This document shows positions 21,233-25,314 of a DNA stretch of 45,388 nt, piece after piece (the stretch's first letter is position 1; every line of letters starts with the position of its first letter). Source of the stretch: Bacteroidia bacterium (GTDB taxonomy: Bacteria; Bacteroidota; Bacteroidia; JADZBD01); the NCBI GenBank assembly GCA_020054095.1, contig JAGVMA010000081.1, positions 1 through 45,388 of the forward strand, read 5' to 3'. The position numbers were made by a program, and so were the translations under genes. Below the pieces are notes generated by a model that was given only the letters and a program-made list of their open reading frames with translations, ran no database searches and was not told the DNA's origin.

Positions 21233-21909
21233 TTTTTATTTGCTGTTAATGTTTTGAAAACAATATCTAAGTAGAAGTTTGTTATGTGATTTTCCTTACT
21301 ATTATTATTTGTTAAACGGGGCAAGTGCTCGGTAAAAAAATGCTGAAGATGCGAACCTTCAATAACAGTTGAAATTAGCATGTTGGGATATTTGTACCTC
21401 GGGCAATATTCCGTTACAAGTGCTGCAATTTTTTCAACTAAATTTTTGTACTCACCAAAAGCACCTATTTTGTTTTCCCTGTCCACATCTTTTGTTAAAA
21501 ATGTTTTTGTTGATTCTGTGAAAACAATATTGCTCAACTTTTTTATGTTTATTGAATTGTAGTTGATGTCATTTGCATTTTTTTCTGTAAGCAATTCAAT
21601 TGCTCGTTCGAGTTTTATTTTTGCCGAATCAATATTTGCTGTTGCAAAAACAAGGCGATACTCCATCCATGACCAGTACCACGATATTAAATAGCTCAGT
21701 AATTTTTGTTTGCTTTCAAAATAGCGATATATAGACGCTTCAGTAGAGTTTATTTCTACTGCAAGCTTACGCATGGTAAATGACTCAAAGCCTATCTCCT
21801 CAATCATGTTTATACTTTCTGCTATAATTTTATTTCCTAAATCACTTGTTGAAGGGTCTTTCAAATAGAGCTTTCTGTTTACTTGAATGTTTAATGTTAA
21901 TGGCATCAT
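21229..21909 (-). CDS. TetR/AcrR-family repressor of the exporter operon
   Basis: 226 residues from the ATG at 21909 (a second ATG at 21906). The DNA-binding N-terminus (about 22-70) is typical: IIAESINMIEEIGFESFTMRKLA, then VEINSTEASIYRYFESKQKLLSYL. The rest is a helical ligand-binding domain of unknown specificity. It overlaps the ABC gene by 4 bp (ATGA) and is the first gene of the operon. A 9-1-9 palindrome (21932-21950) sits inside its own promoter, so autorepression is likely, with release by an unknown ligand. Confidence 0.9.
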   Translation of the reverse strand: MMPLTLNIQVNRKLYLKDPSTSDLGNKIIAESINMIEEIGFESFTMRKLAVEINSTEASIYRYFESKQKLLSYLISWYWSWMEYRLVFATANIDSAKIKLERAIELLTEKNANDINYNSINIKKLSNIVFTESTKTFLTKDVDRENKIGAFGEYKNLVEKIAALVTEYCPRYKYPNMLISTVIEGSHLQHFFTEHLPRLTNNNSKENHITNFYLDIVFKTLTANKK

Positions 21910-21926
21910 TTAGCGATAATTTTCAG

Positions 21927-21959
21927 CAAATATAATAGTAATACTATTATTTGTGCAAA
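21927..21959 (-). promoter_or_regulatory. Promoter of the tetR-exporter operon
   Basis: On the minus strand TTTG (21959-21956) is followed after 21 bp by TATATTTG (21934-21927), an exact -7 match; the start codon is 17 bp downstream. An 11-bp inverted repeat (TAATTTTCAGC at 21917-21927, complement at 21995-22005) also brackets the region. Confidence 0.75.
21932..21950. promoter_or_regulatory. TetR operator, 19-bp palindrome
   Basis: ATAATAGTA-A-TACTATTAT: perfect 9-bp arms around one central base. It fills the spacer between the -33 and -7 boxes of the tetR promoter and overlaps the -7 box by three bases, which is the classical position for a TetR autorepression site. Confidence 0.75.
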
Positions 21960-22031
21960 TTTTTTAACATATTTTAACAGTAATAATATACCTCGCTGAA
22001 AATTAGCTGTTATCTAACATTCACTGTTAAC

Positions 22032-22119
22032 AATATAAACTACAAACATAATTGATTAAAAAATTAAGGTCGCTCGTAAGAGCGACCTGAGTTAGTCGGG
22101 GTGACTGGATTCGAACCAG
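22032..22119. repeat. 88-bp direct repeat, copy A (tRNA-Pro 3' end, terminator, first codons of GIY-YIG gene)
   Basis: Identical over 88 bp to 22368-22455, 336 bp away. It holds the T arm and 3' acceptor of tRNA-Pro, the hairpin terminator (22067-22088) and, at its left edge, the first six codons of a GIY-YIG gene (MFVVYI on the minus strand). After that the sequence runs into unrelated DNA, so this copy of the gene is a stub. Confidence 0.95.
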
Positions 22120-22145
22120 TCCCGCTCTTAGCGGGACACCCCATG
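22096..22145 (-). pseudogene. tRNA-Pro fragment A: 3' half joined to a hairpin
   Basis: On the minus strand this reads CATGGGG (anticodon loop sequence), then a hairpin GTCCCGCT-AAG-AGCGGGAC (22137-22119), then the T arm TGGTTCGAATCCAG and the acceptor end CACCCCGA. The hairpin replaces the 3' side of the anticodon stem and the variable loop of the intact tRNA 336 bp away. It has no 5' half and cannot be a tRNA. The GIY-YIG stop codon lies 4-6 bp from its left edge as transcribed. Confidence 0.8.
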
Positions 22146-22148
22146 GAA

Positions 22149-22385
22149 TTATTTATCGTCAGTAATCCACCTCTCAATTCCTCTCTTTTTAATGTGTGTT
22201 TCGAGCTTCATTGCATCGGCTCTTGTTTGGCAGTAAATTGTTTTGATAACATTCCAAGGTGCACCGTGTTTTGTGCTTTTTACAAACCCTAAATTATGCT
22301 TCTCTAATCTGATTGCAATATCATTTGTTTGTCCGCAATAATATTTTCCCGTTTTTTCGCTTCTAAGAATATAAACTACAAACAT
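22149..22385 (-). CDS. Small stand-alone GIY-YIG nuclease-domain protein
   Basis: 78 residues. The GIY-YIG motif appears as VVYIL (Tyr5) and KYYCG (Tyr17), with Arg26 in IAIRLEKHN and the metal-binding Glu62 in AMKLETHI, so the expected catalytic residues are present. Such small GIY-YIG proteins are numerous in Bacteroidota; biochemical roles are mostly unproven, but the domain cuts DNA in homing endonucleases and UvrC. It lies directly after tRNA-Pro and a hairpin terminator, with its first 18 bp inside the 88-bp direct repeat and its stop codon next to tRNA fragment A. No promoter of its own was seen, so it may depend on read-through from the tRNA. Confidence 0.88.
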   Translation of the reverse strand: MFVVYILRSEKTGKYYCGQTNDIAIRLEKHNLGFVKSTKHGAPWNVIKTIYCQTRADAMKLETHIKKRGIERWITDDK

Positions 22386-22455
22386 AATTGATTAAAAAAT
22401 TAAGGTCGCTCGTAAGAGCGACCTGAGTTAGTCGGGGTGACTGGATTCGAACCAG
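22368..22455. repeat. 88-bp direct repeat, copy B
   Basis: Exact counterpart of 22032-22119. It spans the start of the intact GIY-YIG gene, the terminator and the 3' third of the intact tRNA-Pro. The two copies diverge at once on both sides. Confidence 0.95.
22393..22424 (-). terminator. Hairpin terminator after tRNA-Pro
   Basis: Stem AGGTCGCTC / GAGCGACCT (22403-22411 and 22416-22424), 4-nt loop, followed on the minus strand by TTAATTTTTTAAT. It separates tRNA-Pro from the GIY-YIG gene. A second copy (22067-22088) follows tRNA fragment A. Confidence 0.8.
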
Positions 22456-22505
22456 CGACCACTTGCACCCCATGCAAGTGCGCTACCGGGCTGCGCTACA
22501 CCCCG
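22432..22505 (-). tRNA. tRNA-Pro (anticodon GGG)
   Basis: Minus strand, 74 nt without CCA. The acceptor CGGGGTG pairs with CACCCCG, with discriminator A. D arm GCGCAGCCCGGTAGCGC; anticodon stem CTTGC/GCAAG with loop ATGGGGT, giving anticodon GGG after T33; T arm CTGG-TTCGAAT-CCAG. All stems pair, so this is the functional copy. A 14-bp hairpin (22509-22542) lies immediately upstream of its 5' end and is duplicated with it. Confidence 0.95.
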
Positions 22506-22543
22506 AACTATTTTGGATTGTGACAAATCACAATCCAAAATAA
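22466..22543. repeat. 78-bp direct repeat, copy 1 (tRNA 5' half and upstream hairpin)
   Basis: Identical to 22668-22745, offset 202 bp. It covers the anticodon loop and 5' half of tRNA-Pro plus a perfect 14-bp stem hairpin (TATTTTGGATTGTG, loop ACAAAT). Beyond 22543 the similarity goes on to about 22592 (against 22746-22795), but with roughly a dozen mismatches. Confidence 0.93.
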
Positions 22544-22640
22544 CAGAGTCTTGCATGTGCGGAGAACTACTTCCCGACAAGTGGCAAAAATAGAAAAAAT
22601 ACATTATCGCGTGTGGGTGAATTAATGATTGAAAATTTAT

Positions 22641-22707
22641 TTCGAACCAGTCCCGCTCTTAGCGGGACACCCCATGCAAGTGCGCTACCGGGCTGCGCTA
22701 CACCCCG
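22641..22707 (-). pseudogene. tRNA-Pro fragment C: 5' half joined to a hairpin
   Basis: On the minus strand it starts with the full 5' acceptor, D arm and anticodon loop of tRNA-Pro. It then has the same GTCCCGCT-AAG-AGCGGGAC hairpin as fragment A and stops after TGGTTCGAA, within the T loop. It lacks the 3' acceptor strand, so it is not functional. Bases 22641-22676 are identical to 22110-22145 in fragment A (36 bp). Confidence 0.8.
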
Positions 22708-22745
22708 AACTATTTTGGATTGTGACAAATCACAATCCAAAATAA
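22668..22745. repeat. 78-bp direct repeat, copy 2
   Basis: Exact match of 22466-22543 (tRNA-Pro 5' half and 14-bp hairpin, here at 22711-22744). From 22746 on, up to the TonB promoter, similarity to copy 1 is imperfect. No gene lies between 22506 and 22845 other than tRNA fragment C. Confidence 0.93.
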
Positions 22746-22819
22746 TCGAGTCTTACATGTGTGGAGAACTTTTCCCCGACAGATGGCAAAAATAGTAAAT
22801 TATCATTCCGAAATCCTTG

Positions 22820-22827
22820 TAAATTTG
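22820..22827 (+). promoter_or_regulatory. -7 box of the TonB receptor gene
   Basis: TAAATTTG, exact TAnnTTTG match, 18 bp before the ATG at 22846. No good -33 element was found. Confidence 0.45.
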
Positions 22828-22845
22828 CGCTCTACATTTTTTAAA

Positions 22846-25314
22846 ATGAATAAATTTTTTTTCGCACTCTTTTTACTATTCACATTTTGCATTATCACTT
22901 TTTCTGAAGCGCAAACAAATTCAGAGAAATTTACAATAAGCGGTTATATAAAAGATGATGCTACCGGTGAATTTTTAATTGGGGCGAGCGTTTATCTTAA
23001 AGAAAATAAAAAGGGTAGCACCACAAATGTTTATGGTTTTTATTCCATAACTGTTGAGAAAGGCGATTATACACTTGTTGTTTCATACATTGGTTACACC
23101 GAAATTTCACAGCCAATAAAACTTGATAAAGACTTACGTTTAAATTATTCGCTGAAAGAAGTTACCACGGTAATGGATGAAGTAGAGATAACGAGTGATG
23201 CCCCCGATAAAAATGTGAAAAGTACGGATATGGGCAAATTCACAATTGATGTGGAGACGATAAAAAATTTGCCAGCGTTTATGGGCGAAGTTGATATACT
23301 AAAAACCATTCAGTTGTTGCCCGGCATACAGTCAGCAGGCGAGGGGAACAGCGGTTTTTATGTGCGAGGCGGTGGTCCCGATCAAAACTTGATTTTATTA
23401 GATGAAGCGGTTGTTTACAATGCCTCGCATTTGTTCGGATTTTTTTCGGTGTTTAATGCCGATGCAGTAAAAAATATTGAATTGTATAAAGGCGGTATGC
23501 CAGCGCAGTATGGCGGGAGACTTTCATCAGTGCTCGATATATCTATGAAAGAAGGCAACTCAAAGGAAACACACTACAGAGGCGGTATAGGCGTAATTGC
23601 TTCGCGATTAACAGTAGAAGGCCCGATTAAAAAAGATACAAGCTCGTTTATACTGTCCGGCCGCAGAACGTACATCGATATTTTGGCGCAACCATTTATT
23701 CCTAAAGACAGACCTGCAAAAGGTTCGGGCTACTTTTTTTATGATTTTAATGCTAAACTAAATTACCGCCTTTCGGATAAAGACCGTTTGTTTTTGAGCG
23801 GATATTTTGGGCGAGATGTTTTTAAATTCAGCAGTAAAAATAGTGGATTTAAATCGGATGTACAGTGGGGTAATGCTACCGGCAGTTTGCGTTGGAATCA
23901 TTTGTTTTCTAATAAACTATTCATGAATCTTTCAGCAATTTTTACTGATTATAAATTTGAGTTTGGCGCAACCCAAGATGTTTTCGAATTCAGATTATTT
24001 TCAGGTATCCGCGATTGGAATGCTAAACTCGATTTTAGCTATTTCCCAAACGTGAAGCACAATATAAAGTTTGGGGTAAATTATATTTTTCACACATTTA
24101 GCCCCACAAGTGTAAGCGCAAAAGCCGGTGATGTGAAATTTGATACGGGAGAAAAAGTAAAATTGTATGCACACGATGCATCTGCTTATTTTAACGATGA
24201 CTTTGATGTTACAGAATTATTTAGAGTTAGTGCAGGCATCAGGTATTCTACTTTCACACAGGTGGGTCCATTTAATCGCTATGTTAAAAATTCTTTTGGT
24301 CAGATTACTGATACTATTTATTTCAGCACCAATAAAAAAGTGGCATTTTATCAAGGCATTGAACCACGCTTGTCAACGCGCCTAACCATTACCGAAAACT
24401 CTTCTATCAAAGCCGGCTTCACACATAATTATCAATACATTCACCTGGCGTCTATTTCTGCAGTTTCTTTGCCTACCGATGTTTGGTTCCCGAGCACATC
24501 GGTTGTAAAACCACAAACAGCCACACAATATGCTTTGGGTTATTTCCAAAATTTTAAAAAAGATATGTACGAAACTTCCGTAGAAGTTTATTATAAAGAC
24601 ATGCGCAATTTGGTGGAATACAAAGAGGGTGCGCAGCCCGATGCATCGGTAAAAGATAATGTGGATGAGCCATTCACTTTTGGAAAAGGTTGGGCTTATG
24701 GTGCCGAATTTTTTATTAAAAAACGCTACGGCAAGTTTAATGGTTGGATTGGCTACACATTAGCATGGACCACTCGTCAGTTTGCTGATTTGAATGATGG
24801 AAGGCCATTTCCTGCAAAGTACGACAGGCGACACGATTTATCTGTAGTAGCTACCTATGATTTTAATCCTCAGTGGACAGTTTCTGCAATTTTTGTTTTT
24901 GCAACAGGCAATGCTGCTACTGTTCCGGTGGCACGTTATTTTTTCGAAGGATATTTAGTTAACGATTATGGCGATAGGAATTCATTCCGTTTGGCACCTT
25001 ATCATCGGGCAGATTTATCAGTAACCTTTACACCCGACAGAACAAAAAAAATTGAGAAAAAGAAAAAACGCATGGAAAAACGCTACACTAAAAAAGGAAA
25101 AGATATTTCAACAATTGTACTTCCGCACAAGCGATTTAAAAATTACGAAACCAATTGGAATTTTAGCGTGTTCAATTTATACAATCGCATGAATCCATAC
25201 TATATTTATTTTGATAGTTCGGGTGATATTAATAGTGGCACACTCGATGTAAAAGCATACCAAGTTTCGCTTTTTCCAATTTTGCCATCAGTAACGTGGA
25301 ATTTTAAATTTTAA
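22846..25314 (+). CDS. TonB-dependent outer-membrane receptor with carboxypeptidase-like regulatory domain
   Basis: 822 residues from the ATG at 22846, which begins a signal peptide (MNKFFFALFLLFTFCIITFSEAQ); the open frame extends 29 codons upstream into the tRNA repeat and is not used. Residues 28-115 are a carboxypeptidase D regulatory-like domain (ISGYIKDDATGEFLIGASVY). The plug follows (about 150-250): ILKTIQLLPGIQSAGEGNSG, YVRGGGPDQNLILLDEAVVY, MPAQYGGRLSSVLDI. A 22-strand barrel fills the rest. The protein imports a substrate with TonB energy. The substrate is unknown; there is no SusD. The DUF4249 lipoprotein gene follows 5 bp later. Confidence 0.9.
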   Translation: MNKFFFALFLLFTFCIITFSEAQTNSEKFTISGYIKDDATGEFLIGASVYLKENKKGSTTNVYGFYSITVEKGDYTLVVSYIGYTEISQPIKLDKDLRLNYSLKEVTTVMDEVEITSDAPDKNVKSTDMGKFTIDVETIKNLPAFMGEVDILKTIQLLPGIQSAGEGNSGFYVRGGGPDQNLILLDEAVVYNASHLFGFFSVFNADAVKNIELYKGGMPAQYGGRLSSVLDISMKEGNSKETHYRGGIGVIASRLTVEGPIKKDTSSFILSGRRTYIDILAQPFIPKDRPAKGSGYFFYDFNAKLNYRLSDKDRLFLSGYFGRDVFKFSSKNSGFKSDVQWGNATGSLRWNHLFSNKLFMNLSAIFTDYKFEFGATQDVFEFRLFSGIRDWNAKLDFSYFPNVKHNIKFGVNYIFHTFSPTSVSAKAGDVKFDTGEKVKLYAHDASAYFNDDFDVTELFRVSAGIRYSTFTQVGPFNRYVKNSFGQITDTIYFSTNKKVAFYQGIEPRLSTRLTITENSSIKAGFTHNYQYIHLASISAVSLPTDVWFPSTSVVKPQTATQYALGYFQNFKKDMYETSVEVYYKDMRNLVEYKEGAQPDASVKDNVDEPFTFGKGWAYGAEFFIKKRYGKFNGWIGYTLAWTTRQFADLNDGRPFPAKYDRRHDLSVVATYDFNPQWTVSAIFVFATGNAATVPVARYFFEGYLVNDYGDRNSFRLAPYHRADLSVTFTPDRTKKIEKKKKRMEKRYTKKGKDISTIVLPHKRFKNYETNWNFSVFNLYNRMNPYYIYFDSSGDINSGTLDVKAYQVSLFPILPSVTWNFKF

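Follow-up and report, generated by a model that had tools for sequence, protein, structure and literature searches.

The closest described system is SegB of phages T4 and T6, a free-standing GIY-YIG homing endonuclease that adjoins tRNA genes of many isotypes (PMC13096335; PMC2988022). The enzyme cleaves tRNA genes at the motif RAWTSGAAC, and the homologous recombination that it drives multiplies a 718-bp unit of tRNA and segB in tandem (PMC13096335). When reverse-complemented, as was done in this analysis, the recognition sequence reads as the T-loop motif GTTCSAWTY. GIY-YIG homing endonucleases are also carried by group I introns that occur in tRNA genes (PMC3984707). The locus described here lies in a contig of a Bacteroidia bacterium (GenBank assembly GCA_020054095.1, contig JAGVMA010000081.1; the whole stretch of 45,388 nucleotides that was analysed is called the window). 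With SegB it shares a GIY-YIG nuclease gene placed beside tRNA genes which, across its homologues, are likewise of many isotypes. With free-standing homing endonucleases in general, the family to which it belongs shares filled and empty versions of a site, decay, loss and, in one case, horizontal movement. Unlike the phage enzyme, the protein is a single domain of 78 aa, is encoded on bacterial chromosomes and has no match found in a phage collection; unlike homing endonucleases such as SegB, it has, according to Pfam and the structural model, no separate DNA-binding module. The two SegB papers (PMC13096335; PMC2988022) make no mention of arm-swapped tRNA copies or of a fixed rule for 3' and 5' pieces. 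The unit is best placed as a variant of the tRNA-linked free-standing GIY-YIG elements, in a new form and with a putative mechanism. Group I introns resemble it in the GIY-YIG nuclease, the tRNA host gene and the logic of homing, but here the tRNA is uninterrupted and an intact copy stands beside the gene. An intron was rejected because an Rfam scan of positions 21900-22900 gave only tRNA above the gathering score and no group I intron RNA.

Read along the minus strand, the region between 22.0 and 22.8 kb opens with a 5' fragment of tRNA-Pro with a palindrome, a spacer of ~43 bp and a duplicated upstream region. The intact tRNA-Pro(GGG) follows, and after it come a terminator-like hairpin, the GIY-YIG ORF, a 3' fragment with the identical palindrome, the terminator once more and 18 nt from the start of another GIY gene. 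The intact tRNA-Pro(GGG) (22431-22505, minus strand) was called by ARAGORN and matches Rfam RF00005 with 62.4 bits. A search of the genome found it to be the sole intact GGG isoacceptor, the other match, on a different contig and with 79% identity, being a different tRNA. The 3' fragment (22095-22145, minus strand) covers the tRNA from its anticodon loop onwards as far as the 3' end and carries an arm-replacing palindrome, while the 5' fragment (22641-22707, minus strand) comprises tRNA positions 1-40 followed by the identical palindrome. It is broken exactly at the T-loop TTCGAA, which is the position of the reverse complement of the SegB motif. The palindromes, at 22119-22137 in the 3' fragment and 22650-22668 in the 5' fragment, read GTCCCGCT-CTT-AGCGGGAC, or GTCCCGCT-AAG-AGCGGGAC along the minus strand, with an 8-bp stem, and in both fragments stand in for the 3' half of the anticodon arm. 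The inventory of the initial annotation, made from the letters alone, which had listed one intact tRNA-Pro(GGG), a 3' and a 5' fragment, is confirmed. A 34-bp inverted repeat with 15-bp arms (TATTTTGGATTGTGA) is present at 22509-22542 and again at 22711-22744, duplicated along with the tRNA upstream region. Two minus-strand ORFs, 22428-22604 and 22567-22740, traverse the tRNA-Pro gene (GVAQPGSALAWG...); they are spurious and are likely to be annotated as hypothetical proteins.

Three nested direct repeats organise the locus. The 36-bp exact repeat common to both fragments (22110-22145 and 22641-22676), already pointed out in the initial annotation, is real, and the starts of its copies are 531 bp apart. 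The two longer repeats had been missed. The first, of 100 nt, takes in the terminator together with the tRNA 3' end before it and the initial 18 nt of the GIY gene behind it; one copy lies beside the intact tRNA (22356-22455, minus strand) and an outer copy, which ends in 18 nt left over from a second GIY start (22032-22049), at 22020-22119 (minus strand), with 96% identity and a spacing of 336. The second, of 132 nt, comprises the 5' part of the tRNA and the sequence upstream of it, with one copy on the intact tRNA (22466-22597, minus strand) and an outer copy at 22668-22799 (minus strand), 92% identity and a spacing of 202. The 531-bp segment had been proposed as the mobile unit. We reject this extent because recombination across the 36-bp repeat would delete the only intact tRNA-Pro(GGG) of the genome. 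By comparison with its relatives, the unit is plausibly the 336-bp segment between the 100-nt repeats, which contains the GIY gene, the tRNA 3' piece and the terminator and whose removal would leave the intact tRNA in place. The additional 5' fragment, with its break at the T-loop, would then be what a second event left behind. So many repeats within 800 bp, in an assembly of 87 contigs, could be taken for an assembly artefact at the short repeats of this contig. We give that explanation a negligible probability: because the same architecture recurs in more than 100 independent loci, including single-contig genomes, the structure of the window is neither chance nor an artefact.

The nuclease gene (22149-22385, minus strand) was defined by its ORF and examined with Pfam, AlphaFold and fold matches. 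Its product matches Pfam PF01541 with an E value of 1.9e-14 (54.2 bits; cutoff 22.6), and Y5, Y16, G18, R26, H30 and E62 are invariant across 14 relatives, in line with the initial reading of a GIY-YIG gene with its catalytic residues. The AlphaFold model has a mean pLDDT of 95. Its best structural match is UPF0213 BH0048 (structure 1zg2), followed by Slx1-Slx4 complexes, with TM values by query of 0.66-0.75, as compared with 0.50-0.54 for the more distant I-TevI; UvrC domains are also among the matches. The small GIY-YIG proteins of the UPF0213/COG2827 type are similar to the window protein in size and fold, and this group is not known to have a tie to tRNA genes or to mobility. Between pairs of intact GIY genes, dN/dS ranges from 0 to 0.35, which indicates that the intact genes evolve under purifying selection. 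Known homing enzymes carry a DNA-binding module, and the make-up of this protein, a bare catalytic domain of 78 aa, does not account for its specificity.

A search with the window protein found GIY homologues in 49 of 99 genomes, the window's own included. The 110 homologues examined are most of the matches in those 49 genomes and were found by similarity alone. For 76 of the 110, ARAGORN places a tRNA gene less than 500 bp away, as compared with a chance rate of ~1-2% estimated from ~45 tRNA genes per 3.5 Mb, and in 76/76 the tRNA shares the strand of the GIY gene. The gene usually begins 30-65 bp downstream of the tRNA end. In a second set, 67 of 81 GIY genes are near a tRNA, again all on the same strand (67/67); this set was assembled with a profile of tRNA-linked members, and its association rate does not count as an independent one. 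It comprises 80 named loci and one viral contig, mostly from Bacteroidota, with single Ignavibacteriae and Chlorobiota records. Where an intact tRNA was missing, tRNA fragments were still present on the same strand in 11 of 33 loci and on the opposite strand in none. The genome of the window has a second GIY copy on contig C22, 11 bp past tRNA-Ser(GGA), with a tRNA-Ser 3' piece behind it, and in the genus of genome G094 homologues occur in 54 of 59 species. The search of other Bacteroidota that the initial annotation had suggested finds the architecture again in more than 100 loci. A phage or plasmid origin was rejected, since tblastn of the window protein gave no match in either the phage or the plasmid collection, the one weak viral contig having come from a separate search. 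No description of the Bacteroidota GIY/tRNA association was found in searchable papers, and an earlier description may exist. The tRNA-associated GIY unit of Bacteroidota is real and widespread and, as far as those papers go, apparently undescribed.

The arrangement of genes and fragments follows a rule. A fragment of the same tRNA is present in 111 of the 137 loci that have a tRNA nearby. When the GIY gene is downstream of the tRNA, the fragment lies beyond the gene and reaches the tRNA 3' end (63/70); when it is upstream, the fragment lies ahead of the gene and begins at the tRNA 5' end (22/32). Same-isotype tRNA calls on both flanks are restricted to 4 of 148 GIY genes. In tandem arrays, gene and tRNA piece recur as a pair (e.g., L011, L045, L072, L113 and L117), and the stand-alone cassette of ~300-400 bp recurs in them with constant strand and spacing.

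Since islands and phages classically integrate at tRNA genes, the tolerance of their flanks to insertion could in principle have turned GIY genes and fragments into the debris of larger integrating elements. Integrating islands and prophages, too, are bounded by an intact tRNA and, at the opposite end, by the 3' fragment of a tRNA. The units described here differ from them in having no tyrosine recombinase, in their length of ~300-400 bp and in the mirror-image form with 5' fragments. The five flanking ORFs tested in the window (HlyD, ABC exporter, TetR, TonB receptor and DUF4249) include no recombinase or other mobile-element gene, and an integrating island was rejected on this ground. Together with the constant geometry of a stand-alone cassette and the lack of matches in the phage and plasmid collections, this makes a passive hotspot very improbable.

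The turnover of the units could be followed at one orthologous site, tRNA-Thr(TGT), in 30 species of the genus of G094, where the gene ahead of the site is presumably DUF349-like. Six species have intact units, some of them in tandem, about six have decayed genes, one retains the palindrome and a tRNA piece alone, and the remaining species are empty. The tRNA-Thr itself is intact in all 30, whatever the state of the unit. On a tree of the flanking gene, the sister species L224/L229 and L211/L213 differ in being filled or empty, and in L224 an exact 62-bp repeat of the tRNA 3' end and terminator, in the host's own variant, lies on both sides of the inserted gene. The tRNA thus remains intact while units at a fixed site appear or disappear and decay. 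For the window itself the comparison gave no orthologous empty site: in G001, the only family member compared, tRNA-Pro(GGG) stands in surroundings unrelated to those of the window. Signs of horizontal transfer between species come from a single case: the GIY gene of L214 shares 80-81% identity with those of the distant species L231/L232, against 73% for the flanking gene. In 19 of 19 other pairs, by contrast, the GIY gene is the less conserved of the two. The outer terminator of L214 is also of the L231/L232 type, not that of its own clade. The initial annotation would have given up its reading had the arrangement turned out to be without empty sites and without other copies; both exist. Its proposal of a mobile unit that targets tRNA genes has gained from the working tRNA that is left behind, the many tRNA hosts, the tandem arrays, the turnover and the one likely transfer, and has lost its 531-bp extent.

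The reading that we favour, with a probability of about 0.6, is a SegB-like chromosomal unit that parasitises tRNA genes and is composed of a minimal free-standing homing-type GIY-YIG nuclease of some 80 residues and a partial duplicate of the host tRNA. The nuclease would cleave its tRNA region wherever the unit is absent, and the break would be mended by homologous repair that copies the unit in. The tRNA-derived repeats would supply the homology and would allow the unit to excise or amplify without destroying the tRNA, and selection for a working tRNA would leave the damaged copy outside. The palindrome in this outer copy may remove or mask the target arm and so protect against further cutting; in a filled allele, the palindrome would shield one side and the inserted gene the other. 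As the tRNA in filled alleles is unchanged, the target would have to extend beyond the tRNA, or cutting would have to be limited in some other way. For the unit in the window, cutting by the nuclease and any circular form are putative. Against homing speak the single-domain protein, its fold, which is closer to UPF0213 and Slx1 than to I-TevI, and similar palindromes that lie at a distance from GIY genes or in genomes that have none.

The fold comparison lends some weight to a different route, in which an Slx1-like structure-specific nuclease cuts hairpins or cruciforms into which tRNA arms and dispersed palindromes fold. The duplications would then be a side effect of repair at these structures, and the gene would be carried along between the repeats. 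After UPF0213 BH0048, Slx1-Slx4 is indeed closer than I-TevI, the insertions are at hairpin arms and loops, and dispersed palindromes often seem to be nested within other inverted repeats. However, the isotype-specific lineages at tRNA-Met and tRNA-Val imply recognition of sequence, and the horizontal spread of gene plus tRNA piece suits homing better, so that we consider this route rather unlikely. A benefit to the host, with the nuclease protecting or amplifying tRNA genes, for instance against a tRNA-cutting defence or toxins, would agree with the purifying selection on intact GIY genes and with the amplification of tRNA genes by SegB, by which tRNA-cutting defence is survived (PMC13096335). 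Patchy presence, frequent pseudogenes, loss at an otherwise constant site and the near absence of extra intact tRNA copies beside the gene nevertheless make it improbable.

The palindrome is not peculiar to the window locus, as arm swaps recur in homologous loci. A palindrome stem of at least 7 bp is present in 69% of fragments, as compared with 13% of intact tRNAs and 3% of mononucleotide shuffles. In most fragments it replaces or fills one tRNA arm and is placed at arm boundaries or loops, namely in the anticodon arm (28 loci), the T-loop (23), the whole T arm (11) or the D region (6). Positions 27-43 of the tRNA are swapped exactly for a palindrome in L036, L064 and L128, and positions 49-65 in tRNA-Pro(TGG) of Flavobacteriaceae. 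The palindrome of the window is the local version of this recurrent arm swap.

Palindromes of the TCCCGA..TCGGGA type are also dispersed through these genomes, with as many as 98 copies in a genome where the reversed-pattern control gives 1 (37 genomes counted). Genome G047 has 35 against 0 in the control and no GIY homologue found, and most of the palindrome sites sampled in G057 (L241-L258) lack both a tRNA and a GIY gene. A production of the palindromes by the GIY unit is not supported in view of this dispersal, which includes genomes where no homologue was found; they were likely recruited or inserted independently. REP-like dispersed repeats are similar in being short perfect palindromes that are present elsewhere in these genomes, but the palindromes described here occupy particular arms of tRNA copies that adjoin a GIY-YIG gene. 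Among the window genes tested, there was no Y1 (HUH) transposase, the REP/RAYT partner.

If the altered arm marks the target, its position should bear on the range of tRNAs that a unit can use. The nearest relative is at the same tRNA for 2 of 22 T-loop units, 18 of 25 anticodon-arm units and 10 of 10 whole-T-arm units (Fisher p 1.8e-5 for T-loop versus anticodon arm, in groups that comprise few independent clades). The switching of T-loop units between tRNAs fits the altered arm as the target, because the T-loop, unlike the other arms, is common to all tRNAs. Arm classes cluster on the tree (7 changes against 18.5 when shuffled), and isotype-specific clades at tRNA-Met and tRNA-Val span several families. 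An exception is the tRNA-Thr lineage, which carries T-loop palindromes and yet remains at tRNA-Thr. A prediction of arm class by nuclease similarity across isotypes was dropped: it was significant unstratified and lost significance once stratified by sample set (44/56 versus 39.5). We tentatively suggest, as a possibility we would not yet bet on, that the units represent a new class of selfish element in which a single-domain nuclease addresses tRNA genes by one arm and the arm-swapped copy serves as a mark of immunity. If so, the position of the palindrome, in the T-loop or in an isotype-specific arm, would read out both the target and the isotype range.

Should the homing reading hold, a large share of Bacteroidota, to judge from the 49 of 99 sampled genomes, would host a tRNA-gene parasite small enough to have escaped description. 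Homing into tRNA genes, so far shown for the phage enzyme SegB, would extend to bacterial chromosomes, and many tRNA fragments and spurious tRNA calls near Bacteroidota tRNA genes would be explained. The units would also offer a compact natural system in which the specificity of a nuclease may be readable from which arm has been replaced.

ARAGORN at times seems to call arm-swapped copies as extra tRNAs, such as a false tRNA-Phe (L014, 1724-1799) or the tRNA-??? calls in L199, L204, L209 and L168, which are a source of annotation error. Tandem palindrome-armed tRNA-like copies with no GIY gene between them were seen in L259 (G023:C22:1-700), L264 (G074:C6, 1200-2000) and L266/L271 (G023), and these arrays are possibly relics or non-autonomous derivatives. 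One homologue with no tRNA nearby, in L017 around 1477-1698, seems to lie inside a tyrosine-recombinase-like coding region. In L075, a GIY homologue is found 125 bp behind a tmRNA on the same strand (1010-1376 and 1501-1719), and the association may thus reach other RNA genes with a tRNA-like end.
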